Below are positions 3,679-10,011 of a DNA stretch of 64,000 nt, one piece after another (the first letter of the stretch is position 1; each line of letters begins with the position of its first letter). Both the position numbers and the translations under genes were made by a program. The stretch covers positions 4,774,001 through 4,838,000 of the forward strand of contig NZ_CP128360.1 in assembly GCF_030345095.1 (NCBI RefSeq), written 5' to 3'. A model generated the notes under the pieces. It was not told the origin of the DNA. It ran no database searches and saw only the letters and a program-made list of their open reading frames with translations. This stretch comes from Solwaraspora sp. WMMA2056. GTDB lineage: Bacteria; Actinomycetota; Actinomycetes; Mycobacteriales; Micromonosporaceae.

Positions 3679-3717
3679 CCTCGCGCCGGCCACTGCGGCA
3701 CCGGCGTGGTCAGCCCG
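3671..3717. terminator. Bidirectional hairpin terminator built from two converging stop codons
   Basis: CGGGCTGACC at 3671-3680 is perfectly complementary to GGTCAGCCCG at 3708-3717, and an inner stem CGCCGG (3684-3689)/CCGGCG (3701-3706) continues the structure. The osmC stop (TGA 3676-3678) is in the left arm and the stop of the GGDEF gene (TCA 3710-3712 on the plus strand) is in the right arm. There is no T-run, as is common in high-GC actinobacteria. Confidence 0.7.
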
Positions 3718-6241
3718 AGCCGGTCCGGCGCAGGCGTGGCATCCGGACCACGTGGGCGCCGGGGTGCAGCCGGGGTACGAGTGCCCCGACCACTCCGTCA
3801 CAGCCGCGCCGCAGCGCGGCGAGCAACTGGTCGGCACCGGCGGCCGCCGGCCCGAACAACCGGCCCTGCCCGGCCGCGCAGCCGAGTTCCCAGAGGGTAC
3901 GCCGGTGCGCCTCGGTGGACACTCCGTCGGCGACGACGGTGTCGGCGAGGTCGCGCCCCAGCCCGATCAGGGACCGTAGCGCCAGCGGGGAGTTGTCCGC
4001 CGCGACGAGCGACTGATGGTCCACCTTCACCAGGTGCACCGGGATCCGCAACAGCGCCGACAACGGCGCGTCCGAGGTGCCGAATCCGGCGAACCCGATC
4101 CGGACGCCGTCGTCGTGCAACTGGTGCAGCGCGCGCAGTGCAAGCTCCGGGCAGGTGGCCCCGGTCGTCTCGGTCAACTCGACGGTCAGCAGATCCGCCG
4201 GCACCTGATGGGCCGCCAGCAGCCGTCGGACCTCGGCGGGAAACGCCGGATCGAGCAGGCTGCGCGAACTGATTCCGATCGACACCGGCAGGGCGAACCC
4301 GCCGTCGCGCCAGCACCGGGCGGCGGCCAGCGCGCGGTCCATCGTGCCCCGGGTGAACTCGGCCAGCCAGCCGGACCGCTCGACCAGGGTGAGCAGGCGC
4401 TGGGCGGGCTGGTCACCGAGATCAGGCTGACCCCACCGGACGGTCGCCCCGGCGGCCACGACCGTACCGCTGCCGAGGTCGACGACCGGGTCGAAGGCCA
4501 CCGTGTAACGGCGGGCCGCGAGCGCACCGGGTAGTTCGCCGCCGAGAGCCAGCTGGTCGGGGTCGGCGGTGTCGCGGCTGCGGTCGTAGCGGCACAGGCC
4601 CTGCCCGTGCTCCTTGGCCTGATACATGGCGACGTCCGCCCGACGCAACAGTTCCTCGGTGCTGGTGTTGCCGTCCGCGGTGGCCAGCCCGGCGCTCGCC
4701 CGCAGGCTGATCCGGATCCCGTCGAGGTCCATCGGCTCCCGCAGGACCTGCAGGATCTGCCGGGCGTGGTGCTCGGCCCGGGCGGGGGCTGTCGGACCGG
4801 TGAGCAGGATGGCGAACTCGTCGCCGCCGAGCCGGGCCACGAGGTCGTCGGCCGCCCCTCGGGCGAGTCGCCGGGCGACCTCGATCAGCACCTGGTCGCC
4901 GGCGGAGTGCCCGAGGGTGTCGTTGACCTCCTTGAAGTGGTCGAGGTCGATCAGCAGCAACGCGGTCCGGGGCAGGCTGCGCCGATCCGACAACGCGGCG
5001 GCGAGGCGTTCCCGCAGGTATCGACGGTTGGCCAGCCCGGTCAACGGATCGTGGGTGGCGTCGTGCTCATGCCGGGCCGCGAGCTCGGTGACCTGGGCGT
5101 AGGCGACAGCGTTGCGGATCGCGGTGCCGAGGGCGGAGCCGAAGGTCCGCAGGGTGTAACGCTCCCGGTCGGACAGCGCCGCGCCGGTGAGGCCGAGCCG
5201 CAACGTGCCGAGGCCCGCTGGCGTGGTCGCCGCCCCCAGCGGCACGCTGACCACCCCGTCGTCGGTACGCGGCGGTGCGCGATCGGCCGGGCCGTCGTAC
5301 CGTAGGCCGTGCTCATCGCCCCGGACGAGGCGGCGCTGCGGGCCGTGCTGGAATTCGATCTCGACGAGTCGCGCCGCGAACAACCGGCCGGCTCCCGACA
5401 GCGCGGTCCGCACCACGGCGTCCAGGTCGACGTCGTTGAGGGCGTCGGTGGTCTCGGCGAGCTGCCGCCACGCCGCCCGTTCCTCGGCGAGGTGCAGTCT
5501 GCGGCGGTAGCCGGAATGCAGCAGCAGCACGGCCAGTGGGGTGGCGACGAGCAGCCGGGCATCGATGGCGACGACGACCACGGTCAGCATCGCGATCAGC
5601 AGCGTGGCGGCCTTCACCACCGCGCGCATCCCGGCACCCCGGCGGACCACCCGTCGCCAGGAGGTGCGTTCCGCCAGCGAGACGACCGGCACCGGCAGGG
5701 TCTCGTCCACCAGGGCGTACGCCAGGGCGGCTGCGCACAACGCGAGTGCCGTCGTGGCCCAGGACCGGGTCAGGTGGGTGGTCGACCCGAGGGCCGGGGA
5801 CAGTCCCCACCAGGCGGCGGCCGAGGCGGCACCGAGCGCGCCGAGCGACTCCTTGGCGCTGGCGAAGGCGACCTTGACCGGGGTGGATCCGGCGACGAGT
5901 CGGCCGGCAGCTACGCCCAGCGCCGTACAGACCACCACCCAGGACGGTGGCAGGACCGCCACCGAGACCAGCACCGCCGCGCTGGTCGGCGAGATACCCT
6001 GCGGAGCACGGATCCGGATCGGTACGGTACATCCGCTCGCCACGGCGACCAGGCAGGCCAGGACCAGCGGGTGGTGCAGGGCGGGCAGGCTGGGCGTTGC
6101 CGCGATCCGCGACACCGCCCATGCCAGCGCCACCAGGCCACAGCAGACGATGAGTCCGACGAGAGGCACCAGCCGCCGGTCCGCCTCATCATTACGCACC
6201 GCCGCCGTCGCCTCACTTCCCGTTCGGACAGCACCCTCCAC
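3710..6241 (-). CDS. Membrane GGDEF / degenerate EAL protein (c-di-GMP signalling)
   Basis: The 843-residue protein has several N-terminal membrane spans (about residues 25-240), a GAF-like region (about 255-380), a GGDEF domain with HDPLTGLANRRYL and an intact GGDEF motif at residues 472-476, and an EAL-like domain from about 580. The GGDEF half should make cyclic di-GMP from two GTP. The EAL half is degenerate: the EAL-xRW position reads GAT-VRW, the DDFG position reads GFAGFGT, and the late EGVE position reads DGVS. Metal-binding acidic residues are therefore missing and phosphodiesterase activity is unlikely; the domain may only bind c-di-GMP or GTP. GTG 6241 follows a GAGG site; GTG at residue 15 is an alternative. 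Confidence 0.88.
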   Translation of the reverse strand: MEGAVRTGSEATAAVRNDEADRRLVPLVGLIVCCGLVALAWAVSRIAATPSLPALHHPLVLACLVAVASGCTVPIRIRAPQGISPTSAAVLVSVAVLPPSWVVVCTALGVAAGRLVAGSTPVKVAFASAKESLGALGAASAAAWWGLSPALGSTTHLTRSWATTALALCAAALAYALVDETLPVPVVSLAERTSWRRVVRRGAGMRAVVKAATLLIAMLTVVVVAIDARLLVATPLAVLLLHSGYRRRLHLAEERAAWRQLAETTDALNDVDLDAVVRTALSGAGRLFAARLVEIEFQHGPQRRLVRGDEHGLRYDGPADRAPPRTDDGVVSVPLGAATTPAGLGTLRLGLTGAALSDRERYTLRTFGSALGTAIRNAVAYAQVTELAARHEHDATHDPLTGLANRRYLRERLAAALSDRRSLPRTALLLIDLDHFKEVNDTLGHSAGDQVLIEVARRLARGAADDLVARLGGDEFAILLTGPTAPARAEHHARQILQVLREPMDLDGIRISLRASAGLATADGNTSTEELLRRADVAMYQAKEHGQGLCRYDRSRDTADPDQLALGGELPGALAARRYTVAFDPVVDLGSGTVVAAGATVRWGQPDLGDQPAQRLLTLVERSGWLAEFTRGTMDRALAAARCWRDGGFALPVSIGISSRSLLDPAFPAEVRRLLAAHQVPADLLTVELTETTGATCPELALRALHQLHDDGVRIGFAGFGTSDAPLSALLRIPVHLVKVDHQSLVAADNSPLALRSLIGLGRDLADTVVADGVSTEAHRRTLWELGCAAGQGRLFGPAAAGADQLLAALRRGCDGVVGALVPRLHPGAHVVRMPRLRRTGSG

Positions 6242-6524: not shown

Positions 6525-7562
6525 TCAGCGCGCAATCGCGTGGACGACGGCACGTCGGCCGTCGCGCAGAAAGTCGTACGCACGAGGGAAATCACGCAGG
6601 GTCGCAGAGAATACACTCAGCGTTCTAAGCACCCCACGTTGCGGAACGCCACGCGCCCGCAGCACCTCGACCGTCCACGAAATGGCATCGACGAACAGGG
6701 CACCGTCGTCCATGTAGACAGCCGCCGCGAGAAAATCCACCAGATGACCGAGATCGGCGATCGTGGCATCCCACTGTGCCTGTGTGTAGCCGGAGGTGAT
6801 CCGTTCGGAGCGGCGCAGGTCGTCCAGCGCCAGGTCGATGATCTCGGCCCGCCGCTTCACCAGCCCCGCGTACTCCTCGCCGCCGAGCCGGCCCGTCGGC
6901 GCCGCCGCCCCGGACGACACCTCGCCCGGGGCAGCGAGCAGGTCGGCGGCGGCGCGGGCGTCCGGCGCCCAGGCCACCCCGAACGCCCGCGCCCACCGGC
7001 CGTCCGGACCGAAGCCACGGCCGCCGACCAGAATCGGCACGTCGGCCCGGCGGCAGGCCTCGATCATCTGATGTGCCTGCGGCAGCCGCATCGGCAACGC
7101 GCAGGCCAGGGCCAGCGCCACCGCGTCGTGTCGGTGCAGGTAGGCCATCAGGTGTACGGCGGGCACACTCGCGCCGAGGAAGGTGACCTGCCAACCGCGC
7201 AGTCGCAACACCTCGGCGACCAGCCGGGGCGGCAACGCGTGCCACTCGCCGTCCATGCAGGCCACGACGACCCGCCCCCGGTACGCTCGGGGAGCGGCCC
7301 GGGCGACGACCGCGGCCACCACCTGTTCGCTGATGTGCGTGGCCGCGTGTTCCTGGGCCACCGACCACTCGTTGCGCTGCCACCACTGACCGACCTGTGC
7401 CTGGGCCGGCGCGACGAGGTCGAGCAGCACCGACTCCGCCGGGATCCCGGCCTCCAGCAGGTCGTCGGCCAGGTCCCTGGCGCCGGCCTCGTCTGCCTCG
7501 GCCAGACAGTCGAGAAACGCCGGGTATGCCGAAGTGACGTCGACGGTCGAGACAGCGGCCAC
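6525..7562 (-). CDS. B12-binding sensor with CarH-type light-sensing cap motif
   Basis: The 345-residue product starts at GTG 7562, whose first base is the last base of the phosphatase stop codon (TAGTG), behind a GGAGGA site. Residues 1-90 form a helical B12 cap containing W61-x9-E71-H72, the Wx9EH signature of CarH-type cobalamin photoreceptors. Residues 95-200 are a B12-binding Rossmann domain with E106-x-H108-x-x-P111 (family consensus ExHxxG, so glycine is replaced by proline), then GASVP and a GG pair. Residues 215-345 form a helical domain that I do not recognise with certainty. There is no MerR helix-turn-helix, so it cannot act as CarH does on DNA. The coupling suggests it reports to the adjoining phosphatase; that is inference. 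Confidence 0.82.
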   Translation of the reverse strand: MAAVSTVDVTSAYPAFLDCLAEADEAGARDLADDLLEAGIPAESVLLDLVAPAQAQVGQWWQRNEWSVAQEHAATHISEQVVAAVVARAAPRAYRGRVVVACMDGEWHALPPRLVAEVLRLRGWQVTFLGASVPAVHLMAYLHRHDAVALALACALPMRLPQAHQMIEACRRADVPILVGGRGFGPDGRWARAFGVAWAPDARAAADLLAAPGEVSSGAAAPTGRLGGEEYAGLVKRRAEIIDLALDDLRRSERITSGYTQAQWDATIADLGHLVDFLAAAVYMDDGALFVDAISWTVEVLRARGVPQRGVLRTLSVFSATLRDFPRAYDFLRDGRRAVVHAIAR

Positions 7563-9352
7563 TACCGTCCGTCCTCCGCCGCCTCGGGGTCGGGAACGGC
7601 GCGCAGGTGGCGGTCCCGCTGGCGGCGCGCCGGCGGCTGCGCCCGGATCGCCAGGACCGCGATGTCGTCGTGGTCGCGACCGGCCAACCAGTCCCCGGCC
7701 AACTGTTCGACCCGCTGTGCCAGCGCCGGCGCCGGCATCCGATGACACCCACGCAGCGCCTCACAGAGCCGGGCGAGGCCGTACTGCTCGGTGCCGTACC
7801 GCCCGCCGCGCGCCTCGGTCACCCCGTCGCTGTAGAGCAGGCAGGTGTCCCCCGCCGCGAGTTCCACGGTGAGCTGGCCGATCCGCGGGTCCGGCACCAC
7901 CCCGATCAGCATCCCGCTCAACGGCACCGTCTCCACCGTGCCGTCACCCCGTAGCACCAGCGGCGGCAGGTGCCCGCCGCCGGCCAGGGTCAGGCTCAGC
8001 CCGCCGTCACCCGTCGGGCTCGCGGTCCCCAGCACCATCGTGGCGAACCGGCCCTGGCCGTGCGCCTGGGTGGTCTCCAGCACCGACTCGTTGAGCAACC
8101 GCAGCAGCCGTCGGGGATCGGTCTCGACGTTGCGCAGTGCCTGCAGTCCCTGTCTGACCTGGCCGGTGAAGACGGCCGCGTCGACACCCTTGCCGGAGAC
8201 GTCACCCAGGAAGAACAGGACGTCGCGGTCGGCGAGCCCGAAGGCACCGTAGAAGTCACCGCCGATCCGCAACGACGACTGCGCCGGTCGGTACGCGGTG
8301 CCCCACTGCACGCCCGGCACCGGGTGCGGCTCGGTCGGCAGCAGGCTGGCCTGCAACGTCTCGGCGATCTCCGACTGGTGCCGGTAGAGCACGGCGGCGT
8401 CGAGTGCGGAACCCGCGCGGGCGGCGAACCCACGCAGCAGGTGCAGGTCCGCGTCGTCGAAGCCGACCGCGCCGCGCCGCGCGACGAGCAGGGCACCGGT
8501 CGGTTGCGCGCTGCCGGGCAGCCCCACCACGCGTACGGCGGCATCGGACGCCTGTGCCGGAGCCAGCCAGCCGAGGTCGACGGCCTGCTCGGCGAGCCAG
8601 TCCACCGATGTCGCCCCCGTACCGGCGAGCGTTTCGACGAAGGCCGCCGGCAGGTCACCGACGGCGAGTACGCCGCCGTCGACCTGCGGGCCGGTGCTGC
8701 CCCCGCCGCGTGCCCGCCACCACCGCGCCTGACCCCGGCGTGGCGCGACGACCAGCACGGCGACCTCACCCAGCGTCGGTACGGCGAGGCGCACCACGGC
8801 CCGGGCGGCGCGGTCCTCGTGCAGCGGATTACCCAGCCGTTGGCTGGCCGTGGCGAGGAACATCCAGCGGGCCCGCTCGGCGAGCAGCGCGTCGGAACGT
8901 GTCGTGCTCTCCGTGGCGTCGTCGACGTACCACGCGGTCCGGTCCCGGTCCAGGGGCACCCGGCGCAGCCGCAGGCGCAGCCCGCGATGGGTCAGCTCGC
9001 CACCGTCATCGCGCATCGCCGCGTCGAGGCCACCGACCCCGCTCACCACGACGACCTGTCCGACCACGAGCTCCGGCAGCAACCGACGCGCCGTGGCGTC
9101 GATGTGTCGCACCACGGCAGCCGCGTCGCAGATCACCAGCCCCTCGCGGAAGTTGTCCACCACGGCGGTCATTTCGAAACCGGGCTCCGCCGAGGGCGCG
9201 GCAGTGGGTGCCGTGGGGCGTTGCGCGGGCGGCGTACCGGCATCGGACGGATCAGACCCCCCAGCCACCGTCGCCGGCCCGGGTGTGGAGATCCGCCCGT
9301 CGCCCGACTCCCAGTTCGTGACGTCGGCGGTGCTCACCAGCCCAGGCCCCAC
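7562..9352 (-). CDS. PAS-GAF-SpoIIE (PP2C) serine phosphatase, RsbU-like
   Basis: The 596-residue protein has a proline/alanine-rich N-terminus, a PAS-like domain (about 62-150), a GAF domain (about 170-310) and a C-terminal SpoIIE/PP2C phosphatase (about 325-565). Metal-binding motifs are intact: GGDFYGAF, LGDVSGKG, AGGGHLPP, YSDGVTEAR and HDDIAVLAIR. RsbU/SpoIIE enzymes dephosphorylate STAS anti-sigma antagonists in partner-switching cascades. A B12-binding sensor is translationally coupled directly downstream, and a STAS gene (now interrupted) lies divergently about 280 bp upstream. The start is uncertain: GTG 9352 is used, with GTG 9337 possible. Confidence 0.88.
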   Translation of the reverse strand: MGPGLVSTADVTNWESGDGRISTPGPATVAGGSDPSDAGTPPAQRPTAPTAAPSAEPGFEMTAVVDNFREGLVICDAAAVVRHIDATARRLLPELVVGQVVVVSGVGGLDAAMRDDGGELTHRGLRLRLRRVPLDRDRTAWYVDDATESTTRSDALLAERARWMFLATASQRLGNPLHEDRAARAVVRLAVPTLGEVAVLVVAPRRGQARWWRARGGGSTGPQVDGGVLAVGDLPAAFVETLAGTGATSVDWLAEQAVDLGWLAPAQASDAAVRVVGLPGSAQPTGALLVARRGAVGFDDADLHLLRGFAARAGSALDAAVLYRHQSEIAETLQASLLPTEPHPVPGVQWGTAYRPAQSSLRIGGDFYGAFGLADRDVLFFLGDVSGKGVDAAVFTGQVRQGLQALRNVETDPRRLLRLLNESVLETTQAHGQGRFATMVLGTASPTGDGGLSLTLAGGGHLPPLVLRGDGTVETVPLSGMLIGVVPDPRIGQLTVELAAGDTCLLYSDGVTEARGGRYGTEQYGLARLCEALRGCHRMPAPALAQRVEQLAGDWLAGRDHDDIAVLAIRAQPPARRQRDRHLRAVPDPEAAEDGR

Positions 9353-9633: not shown

Positions 9634-10011
9634 GTGTGGGGTGGCGGATCGGACACCACGGCGGCCCCACTCGTCGTGACCGCAGGCCCGGCCTCGCCGC
9701 AGGACGCGGTGCTGCGTCTCGCCGGCGATCTCGACTTCCAGACAGCCGCCCTGGTGCACCAGCGGGTCGATCTGGCCCTCGCCGGGCGACCGGCCCGGCT
9801 GGTCCTGGATCTGCGTGGGCTCACCTTCATCGACAGCACCGGCCTCGCGGCGATCGTGTACGCCTGGCGCGCCGCCTAGGACCAGCAGGCCACGGTGCAG
9901 CTGCACGACGTTCCCGCATTCCTCGCCAGCGTGCTCGACATCACCGGTGTCGGTGAGCTGCTGGCACGGCCGCTGCCCGAGGCAGCCGACCCGGATGCCA
10001 GCACGGCCTGA
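9634..10011 (+). pseudogene. STAS-domain anti-sigma factor antagonist interrupted by an in-frame amber codon
   Basis: From GTG 9634 (AAGGGG site about 10 nt upstream; an ATG exists at 9514) the frame encodes a STAS domain: LRLAGDLDFQTA, then FIDSTGLAAIVYAW with the serine that is phosphorylated in SpoIIAA/RsbV proteins. The frame meets TAG at 9877-9879 just after this motif. The same frame continues without shift for 43 codons to TGA 10009, and that part is the expected C-terminal half (VQLHDVPAFLASVLDITGVGELL). One base change from CAG, CGG-like or similar codons explains the break. The truncated protein would lose the last strand and helix, so I call it a pseudogene, although readthrough or a base-call error cannot be excluded. 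It lies divergent to the SpoIIE phosphatase gene. Confidence 0.75.

Follow-up and report, generated by a model that had tools for sequence, protein, structure and literature searches.

The window analysed here, i.e., a stretch of 64,000 nucleotides from Solwaraspora sp. WMMA2056 (contig NZ_CP128360.1), contains two consecutive genes that encode a SpoIIE-type phosphatase and a B12-binding protein (Table 1). The phosphatase reading frame ends in ...GACGGACGGTAG (7564-7562, minus strand) and the GTG start codon of the putative sensor, which is counted as residue 1 throughout, begins at 7562. Stop and start codon hence share a single base, just as the original prediction for this DNA had described.

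Table 1. Features of the photocobilin-SpoIIE locus and its surroundings (positions in the window).
Feature	Position	Strand	Basis or remark
GGDEF-EAL protein gene	3710-6241	-	downstream of photocobilin, same strand, gap ~280 bases
Photocobilin gene, 345 aa, GTG start	6525..7562	-	phmmer, Foldseek, AF2
Photoglobin (biliverdin-binding globin) domain, ~residues 229-344	6531..6878	-	full-length SasPcob alignment; AF2 helices
W296	6675-6677	-	within photoglobin domain
D270	6753-6755	-	within photoglobin domain
Rossmann-type B12-binding domain, ~residues 97-210, incl. H137	6933..7274	-	PF02310 E 4.5e-14, alignment
E106-W107-H108 (ExH)	7239-7247	-	H108 is the cobalt ligand in SasPcob (PMC10979010)
Four-helix-bundle cap, ~residues 9-87	7302..7538	-	PF02607 E 1.3e-14
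E71-H72	7347-7352	-	within four-helix-bundle cap; with W61 forms W-x9-EH
W61	7380-7382	-	within four-helix-bundle cap
TAGTG, SpoIIE stop / photocobilin GTG start, 1-base overlap	7560..7564	-	sequence
PAS-GAF-linker helix-PPM (SpoIIE) serine/threonine phosphatase, 596 aa	7562..9352	-	PF07228, AF2
PPM/SpoIIE catalytic domain, residues 345-571	7640..8320	-	alignment
Long linker helix, residues 300-337 (38 residues), between GAF and PPM	8342..8455	-	AF2 secondary structure
STAS (anti-sigma-antagonist-like) gene, divergent, FIDSTG phospho-site motif	9634..10011	+	genome-wide PF01740 search

A Pfam scan of the 345-residue sensor matched B12-binding_2 (PF02607) and B12-binding (PF02310) only, with no MerR or helix-turn-helix (HTH) family among its hits, and in the AF2 model (mean pLDDT 90.6) the N-terminus of the protein coincides with the start of the B12 four-helix bundle. 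The lack of a MerR HTH and the motifs W61, E71-H72 and ExH had been read correctly from the DNA, down to the exact residue numbers. It had further been proposed that this is a CarH-like sensor with a helical C-terminal domain of unknown type. Judged by sequence and predicted fold, however, the protein is a full-length photocobilin and not a CarH minus its HTH: in a phmmer search of PDB sequences, the photocobilin structures 8J2X and 8J2W match residues 16-341 with E-values of 2.5e-97 and 3.1e-97, followed by 8J2Y (1.7e-42), while CarH scores far more weakly (5c8a, 2.5e-10). Foldseek with the AF2 model likewise returned 8J2W and 8J2X as top hits (TM 0.91), with an Acidimicrobiaceae photocobilin next. 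Because these solved structures are matched over the full length, the C-terminal helical domain can be assigned as a photoglobin, and the domain order is that of a B12-binding four-helix bundle, a Rossmann domain and a C-terminal photoglobin. What stands of the CarH comparison is thus a CarH-type B12 cap that lacks a DNA-binding domain.

Photocobilins combine a CarH-type B12 module with a five-helix globin that holds biliverdin beside the corrin (Zhang et al. 2024, PMC10979010). In these receptors, W61 stacks on the adenosyl group, E71-H72 belong to a network at the dimer interface and H108 is the cobalt ligand, while H137 touches a biliverdin propionate across the dimer and D270 and W296 are biliverdin residues; light, either green via B12 or red via biliverdin, cleaves the Co-C bond and the dimers separate (PMC10979010). 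The Solwaraspora sensor is 54% identical overall to SasPcob, the photocobilin of Saccharothrix syringae (63% over the B12 module, 44% over the globin), and all seven of these residues are present at the same positions of the alignment. These include the complete set of four residues of the adenosylcobalamin (AdoCbl) site (Trp61, Glu71-His72 and His108) and both Asp270 and Trp296 of the biliverdin pocket; a covalent Cys is absent from the globin domain, with no Cys after residue 228. Among 87 homologues paired with a SpoIIE gene (see below), W61, E71, H72 and H108 are invariant (87/87), as is W296 of the bilin pocket; D270 is substituted in 18 of the 87 and retained in the Solwaraspora sensor. 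From family membership, we predict that the sensor would bind AdoCbl and biliverdin and undergo green/red photoconversion, and both photocobilins characterised so far are photoactive (PMC10979010).

The Solwaraspora genome carries one haem oxygenase gene that could supply biliverdin. Across 301 genomes of the family, haem oxygenase (PF01126) showed no association with photocobilin (p 0.28), and within the largest genus it is found in only 19 of 89 photocobilin genomes. Haem oxygenase co-occurrence was therefore ruled out as proof of biliverdin use. Since the two genes are unassociated across the family, the use of biliverdin may vary, and some photocobilins may work with B12 alone or obtain biliverdin otherwise.

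The phosphatase had originally been described as a PAS-GAF-SpoIIE protein, and this layout was borne out. Its SpoIIE domain matches PF07228 with an E-value of 1.2e-41 (143 bits against a cut-off of 25), and the metal-site aspartates D366, D384, D509 and D562/D563 are intact and fall into invariant or nearly invariant columns, both in the alignment and among the 87 partner phosphatases. The AF2 model (mean pLDDT 86.5) displays a PAS-like region (residues 60-145), a GAF-like region (179-293), the helix 300-337 and the PPM domain (345-571). A GAF match in the phosphatase itself stays below the Pfam cut-off; 16 of 34 orthologues match GAF models and up to 6 of 34 match PAS models. The best fold match in the PDB is the RsbU domain of Rv1364c from M. 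tuberculosis, and the modelled architecture is of the RsbP/RsbU type. In phosphatases of this type, linker helices govern dimerisation and activity (PMC12143880).

To place the two genes in a broader context, we located photocobilin homologues in three genome sets (301 from the family, 299 from the order and 396 from the phylum) and compared 101 loci, i.e., 100 that were fetched with their flanks and the window itself. The pairing seen in Solwaraspora proved to be widely conserved: of the 101 photocobilin loci sampled in the phylum, 87 have a same-strand SpoIIE gene that ends directly in front of the sensor. The original prediction had named a lack of conserved pairing as grounds for its refutation, and it withstood this test. 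With just 10 SpoIIE genes across the 7.0 Mb of the Solwaraspora genome, the adjacency is far beyond chance. In 73 of the 87 pairs, the phosphatase stop overlaps the sensor start (36 GTGA, 23 ATGA, 7 TAGTG, 6 TGATG and 1 TTGA), and the two-gene unit is found across families of the order as well as in another order of the class. In an all-against-all comparison of neighbours at the 101 loci, no other real neighbour family was kept nearly as often; several clusters in this comparison were antisense frames of the sensor and phosphatase genes. We saw no photocobilin-SpoIIE fusion protein among the loci. An apparent C-terminal extension of SpoIIE at some of them, with gaps of 1.0-1.6 kb, was discarded as an artefact of taking the first domain match, and the phosphatase frame at these loci always ends beside the sensor.

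The two genes are also inherited together. Among the 301 family genomes, 191 carry both, none the sensor only, 3 the phosphatase only and 107 neither (Fisher p 3.8e-79), so that every single genome with a sensor (191/191) also has the phosphatase. Distance matrices of sensor and phosphatase are correlated (Mantel r 0.90, 0/999 permutations), which partly reflects shared ancestry. In three genomes with two copies, the sensor and phosphatase paralogues are similarly diverged and their nearest neighbours mostly coincide. Taken with the near-universal overlap of the two genes in related actinobacteria, these sequence comparisons suggest that the phosphatase is the target of the sensor.

Two of the three genomes with the phosphatase only (L203 and L204) were inspected and contain no detectable photocobilin beside the paired-type phosphatase. 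The phosphatase can therefore work alone, and these genomes represent a natural experiment on sensor loss.

The 14 loci without an upstream SpoIIE gene include 10 low-scoring ones from other classes of the phylum. Unpaired photocobilins have GGDEF, PAS-EAL, HATPase or heliorhodopsin genes as neighbours, e.g., a distant homologue from another class of the phylum that overlaps a heliorhodopsin frame (L166:6887-8753, plus strand; PF18761, E 2.2e-101). At two further loci, frames of 486 codons that have no Pfam match follow unpaired homologues (L156:8025-9482 and L157:8048-9505) and could be either an output protein or a non-coding frame.

Genes for STAS proteins are a recurrent third element near the pair. 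Of the 87 pairs, 57 have one at a distance of up to 3.5 kb, in most cases immediately downstream or in divergent orientation upstream, and none of the 14 unpaired loci does; given 13 STAS domains in a genome, around 1% of pairs would be expected to have such a neighbour by chance. In Solwaraspora, the divergent STAS gene detected in the PF01740 search contains an in-frame stop codon (TAG, 9877-9879) beyond its phospho-site motif; the nearest relative (L044) has an uninterrupted frame. The interrupted gene is possibly a pseudogene, a truncated form or the product of a sequencing error. No match to an anti-sigma kinase (HATPase_c_2) lies near the pair, and the nearest kinase-like match in the window is weak and ca. 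47 kb away. On the other side of the pair, the GGDEF-EAL gene is a possible second light output that would act via c-di-GMP.

We propose that the sensor and phosphatase genes act as a bicistronic unit for light signalling. In the dark, the photocobilin would bind adenosylcobalamin with H108 as lower ligand and W61, E71 and H72 around the adenosyl group, hold biliverdin near D270 and W296, and assemble into a head-to-tail dimer like that of the Saccharothrix protein. Upon illumination, in the green via B12 or in the red via biliverdin, the Co-C bond would break, the adenosyl group would be released and the dimer would be disrupted. The co-translated PAS-GAF-PPM phosphatase would read this change by direct contact, most likely at its N-terminal sensory part, and the signal would reach the PPM domain through the linker helix of 38 residues, comparable to the action of RsbQ on the PAS domain of RsbP or of RsbT on RsbU. 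The phosphatase would in turn dephosphorylate a STAS anti-sigma antagonist and thereby alter the partner switch between anti-sigma and sigma factor. The phosphatase as target of the photocobilin, the STAS substrate, the sigma factor and the sign of the effect are each something that we infer, and the sigma-factor link is drawn from knowledge of the protein families since no kinase gene lies near the pair and the STAS gene is interrupted.

That partner switching receives an input here from a light-switched PPM phosphatase, in an arrangement like that of RsbQ-RsbP, appears quite likely to us. Weighing against it are the lack of a sensor-phosphatase fusion among the loci, the genomes that keep the phosphatase without the sensor, the missing association with haem oxygenase, the substitutions of D270 in other homologues and, around the pair itself, the lack of an anti-sigma kinase gene and the interrupted STAS gene. 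RsbQ is thought to act in trans on the PAS part of RsbP, and RsbQ-PAS modules elsewhere drive kinases and cyclases (PMC3183031). Light control of the phosphatase is judged most likely because of this model and because a similar interchange of outputs is seen near unpaired photocobilins. Photocobilins are moreover known to activate a diguanylate cyclase that is either attached or added separately, though the cyclase that a stand-alone photocobilin activated in trans was a foreign one (PMC10979010).

Several other readings of the locus deserve consideration. The sensor might respond mainly to the level of B12 or to redox conditions, or serve only as a dimerisation cap, with light being incidental and the phosphatase still under its control. 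It would fit such a role that the B12 sites do not vary among the pairs while the biliverdin residue D270 does, and that most pair-carrying genomes of the largest genus have no haem oxygenase. However, the three residues that hold the photolabile adenosyl group are conserved throughout the pairs along with W296, and photoactivity was found for both of the photocobilins that have been characterised, which makes this reading unlikely. It is also conceivable that the two genes are merely co-transcribed and have different targets, such that the photocobilin regulates another neighbour, e.g., the GGDEF-EAL protein. The gene for this protein is kept in all four relatives from the genus (L044-L047, 72-97% identity), and control of a diguanylate cyclase by photocobilins has precedent; yet it was not found in any of the eight tested loci of other genera, as opposed to a SpoIIE gene adjacent in the great majority of loci, and we consider this explanation unlikely.

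Gene order may be retained among closely related actinobacteria and our sample comes largely from one family, so the pairing might also reflect inertia of gene order without any functional coupling. Against this speak the spread of the unit over families and orders, which no other neighbouring family shares to a comparable extent, and the nearly perfect match in presence and absence of sensor and phosphatase, which together render mere inertia very improbable. Finally, one might see in the sensor a relative of CarH that is free of DNA binding and carries an unknown C-terminal domain, and thus an undescribed receptor class. Among transcription-factor families, CarH does come closest to the B12 part (5c8a), but the photocobilin structures match the whole length with E-values of ~1e-97, so that the C-terminal domain and the receptor class are both already described and this view is practically untenable.

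A light-switched phosphatase therefore remains our preferred reading. The locus had been put forward as a candidate for an undescribed signalling system, and in this respect the literature is ahead: structures and light response of photocobilins were published in 2024, and a link to SpoIIE and STAS proteins was suggested for the Saccharothrix photocobilin in the same work, which named STAS, SpoIIE and PP2C-like phosphatases as potential interaction partners of SasPcob on the basis of STRING and called the function of stand-alone photocobilins less clear (PMC10979010). The partner assignment is now much firmer. What the present comparison adds is a quantitative case that stand-alone actinobacterial photocobilins have their dedicated partner in a SpoIIE phosphatase, with co-inheritance and overlapping genes naming the likely natural partner. 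A photoglobin survey by Schneider et al. from 2022 reportedly analysed gene neighbourhoods in general. For the class Actinomycetes as a whole, we lean towards the view that a photocobilin with its dedicated PAS-GAF-PPM phosphatase, often accompanied by a STAS protein, is a widespread co-inherited light receptor that places partner switching of the general-stress type under green/red light. If green or red light indeed alters the activity of the phosphatase on a neighbouring STAS protein, B12/bilin light sensing would be tied to stress or developmental sigma factors of soil actinobacteria, and the pair could be used for optogenetic control of protein dephosphorylation with red and green light.

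The closest known relative of the sensor is the stand-alone SasPcob (PDB 8J2W for the dark and 8J2X for the light state), which shares its domain order and key-residue numbering; its probable partners were suggested by STRING, whereas for the Solwaraspora-type pair the SpoIIE neighbour, with its overlap and co-inheritance, is documented across many genomes. AbDPcob (PDB 8J2Y) has the same sensory domains with light controlling the attached enzyme, but is a photocobilin-diguanylate cyclase fusion with a GGDEF output, ca. 34% identity to the sensor and a His in place of D270. The MerR-family B12 photoreceptors CarH and LitR have in common with the Solwaraspora sensor the B12 cap with its W-x9-EH and ExH motifs; they carry a MerR DNA-binding domain where the sensor has none and instead features a photoglobin and a likely phosphatase partner. 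The arrangement as a whole most resembles RsbQ-RsbP of Bacillus subtilis, in which a sensor gene is similarly adjacent to one for a PAS-linker-PPM phosphatase (PMC3183031), although RsbQ, as an alpha/beta hydrolase, has no relation to photocobilin and the Solwaraspora phosphatase has an added GAF domain.
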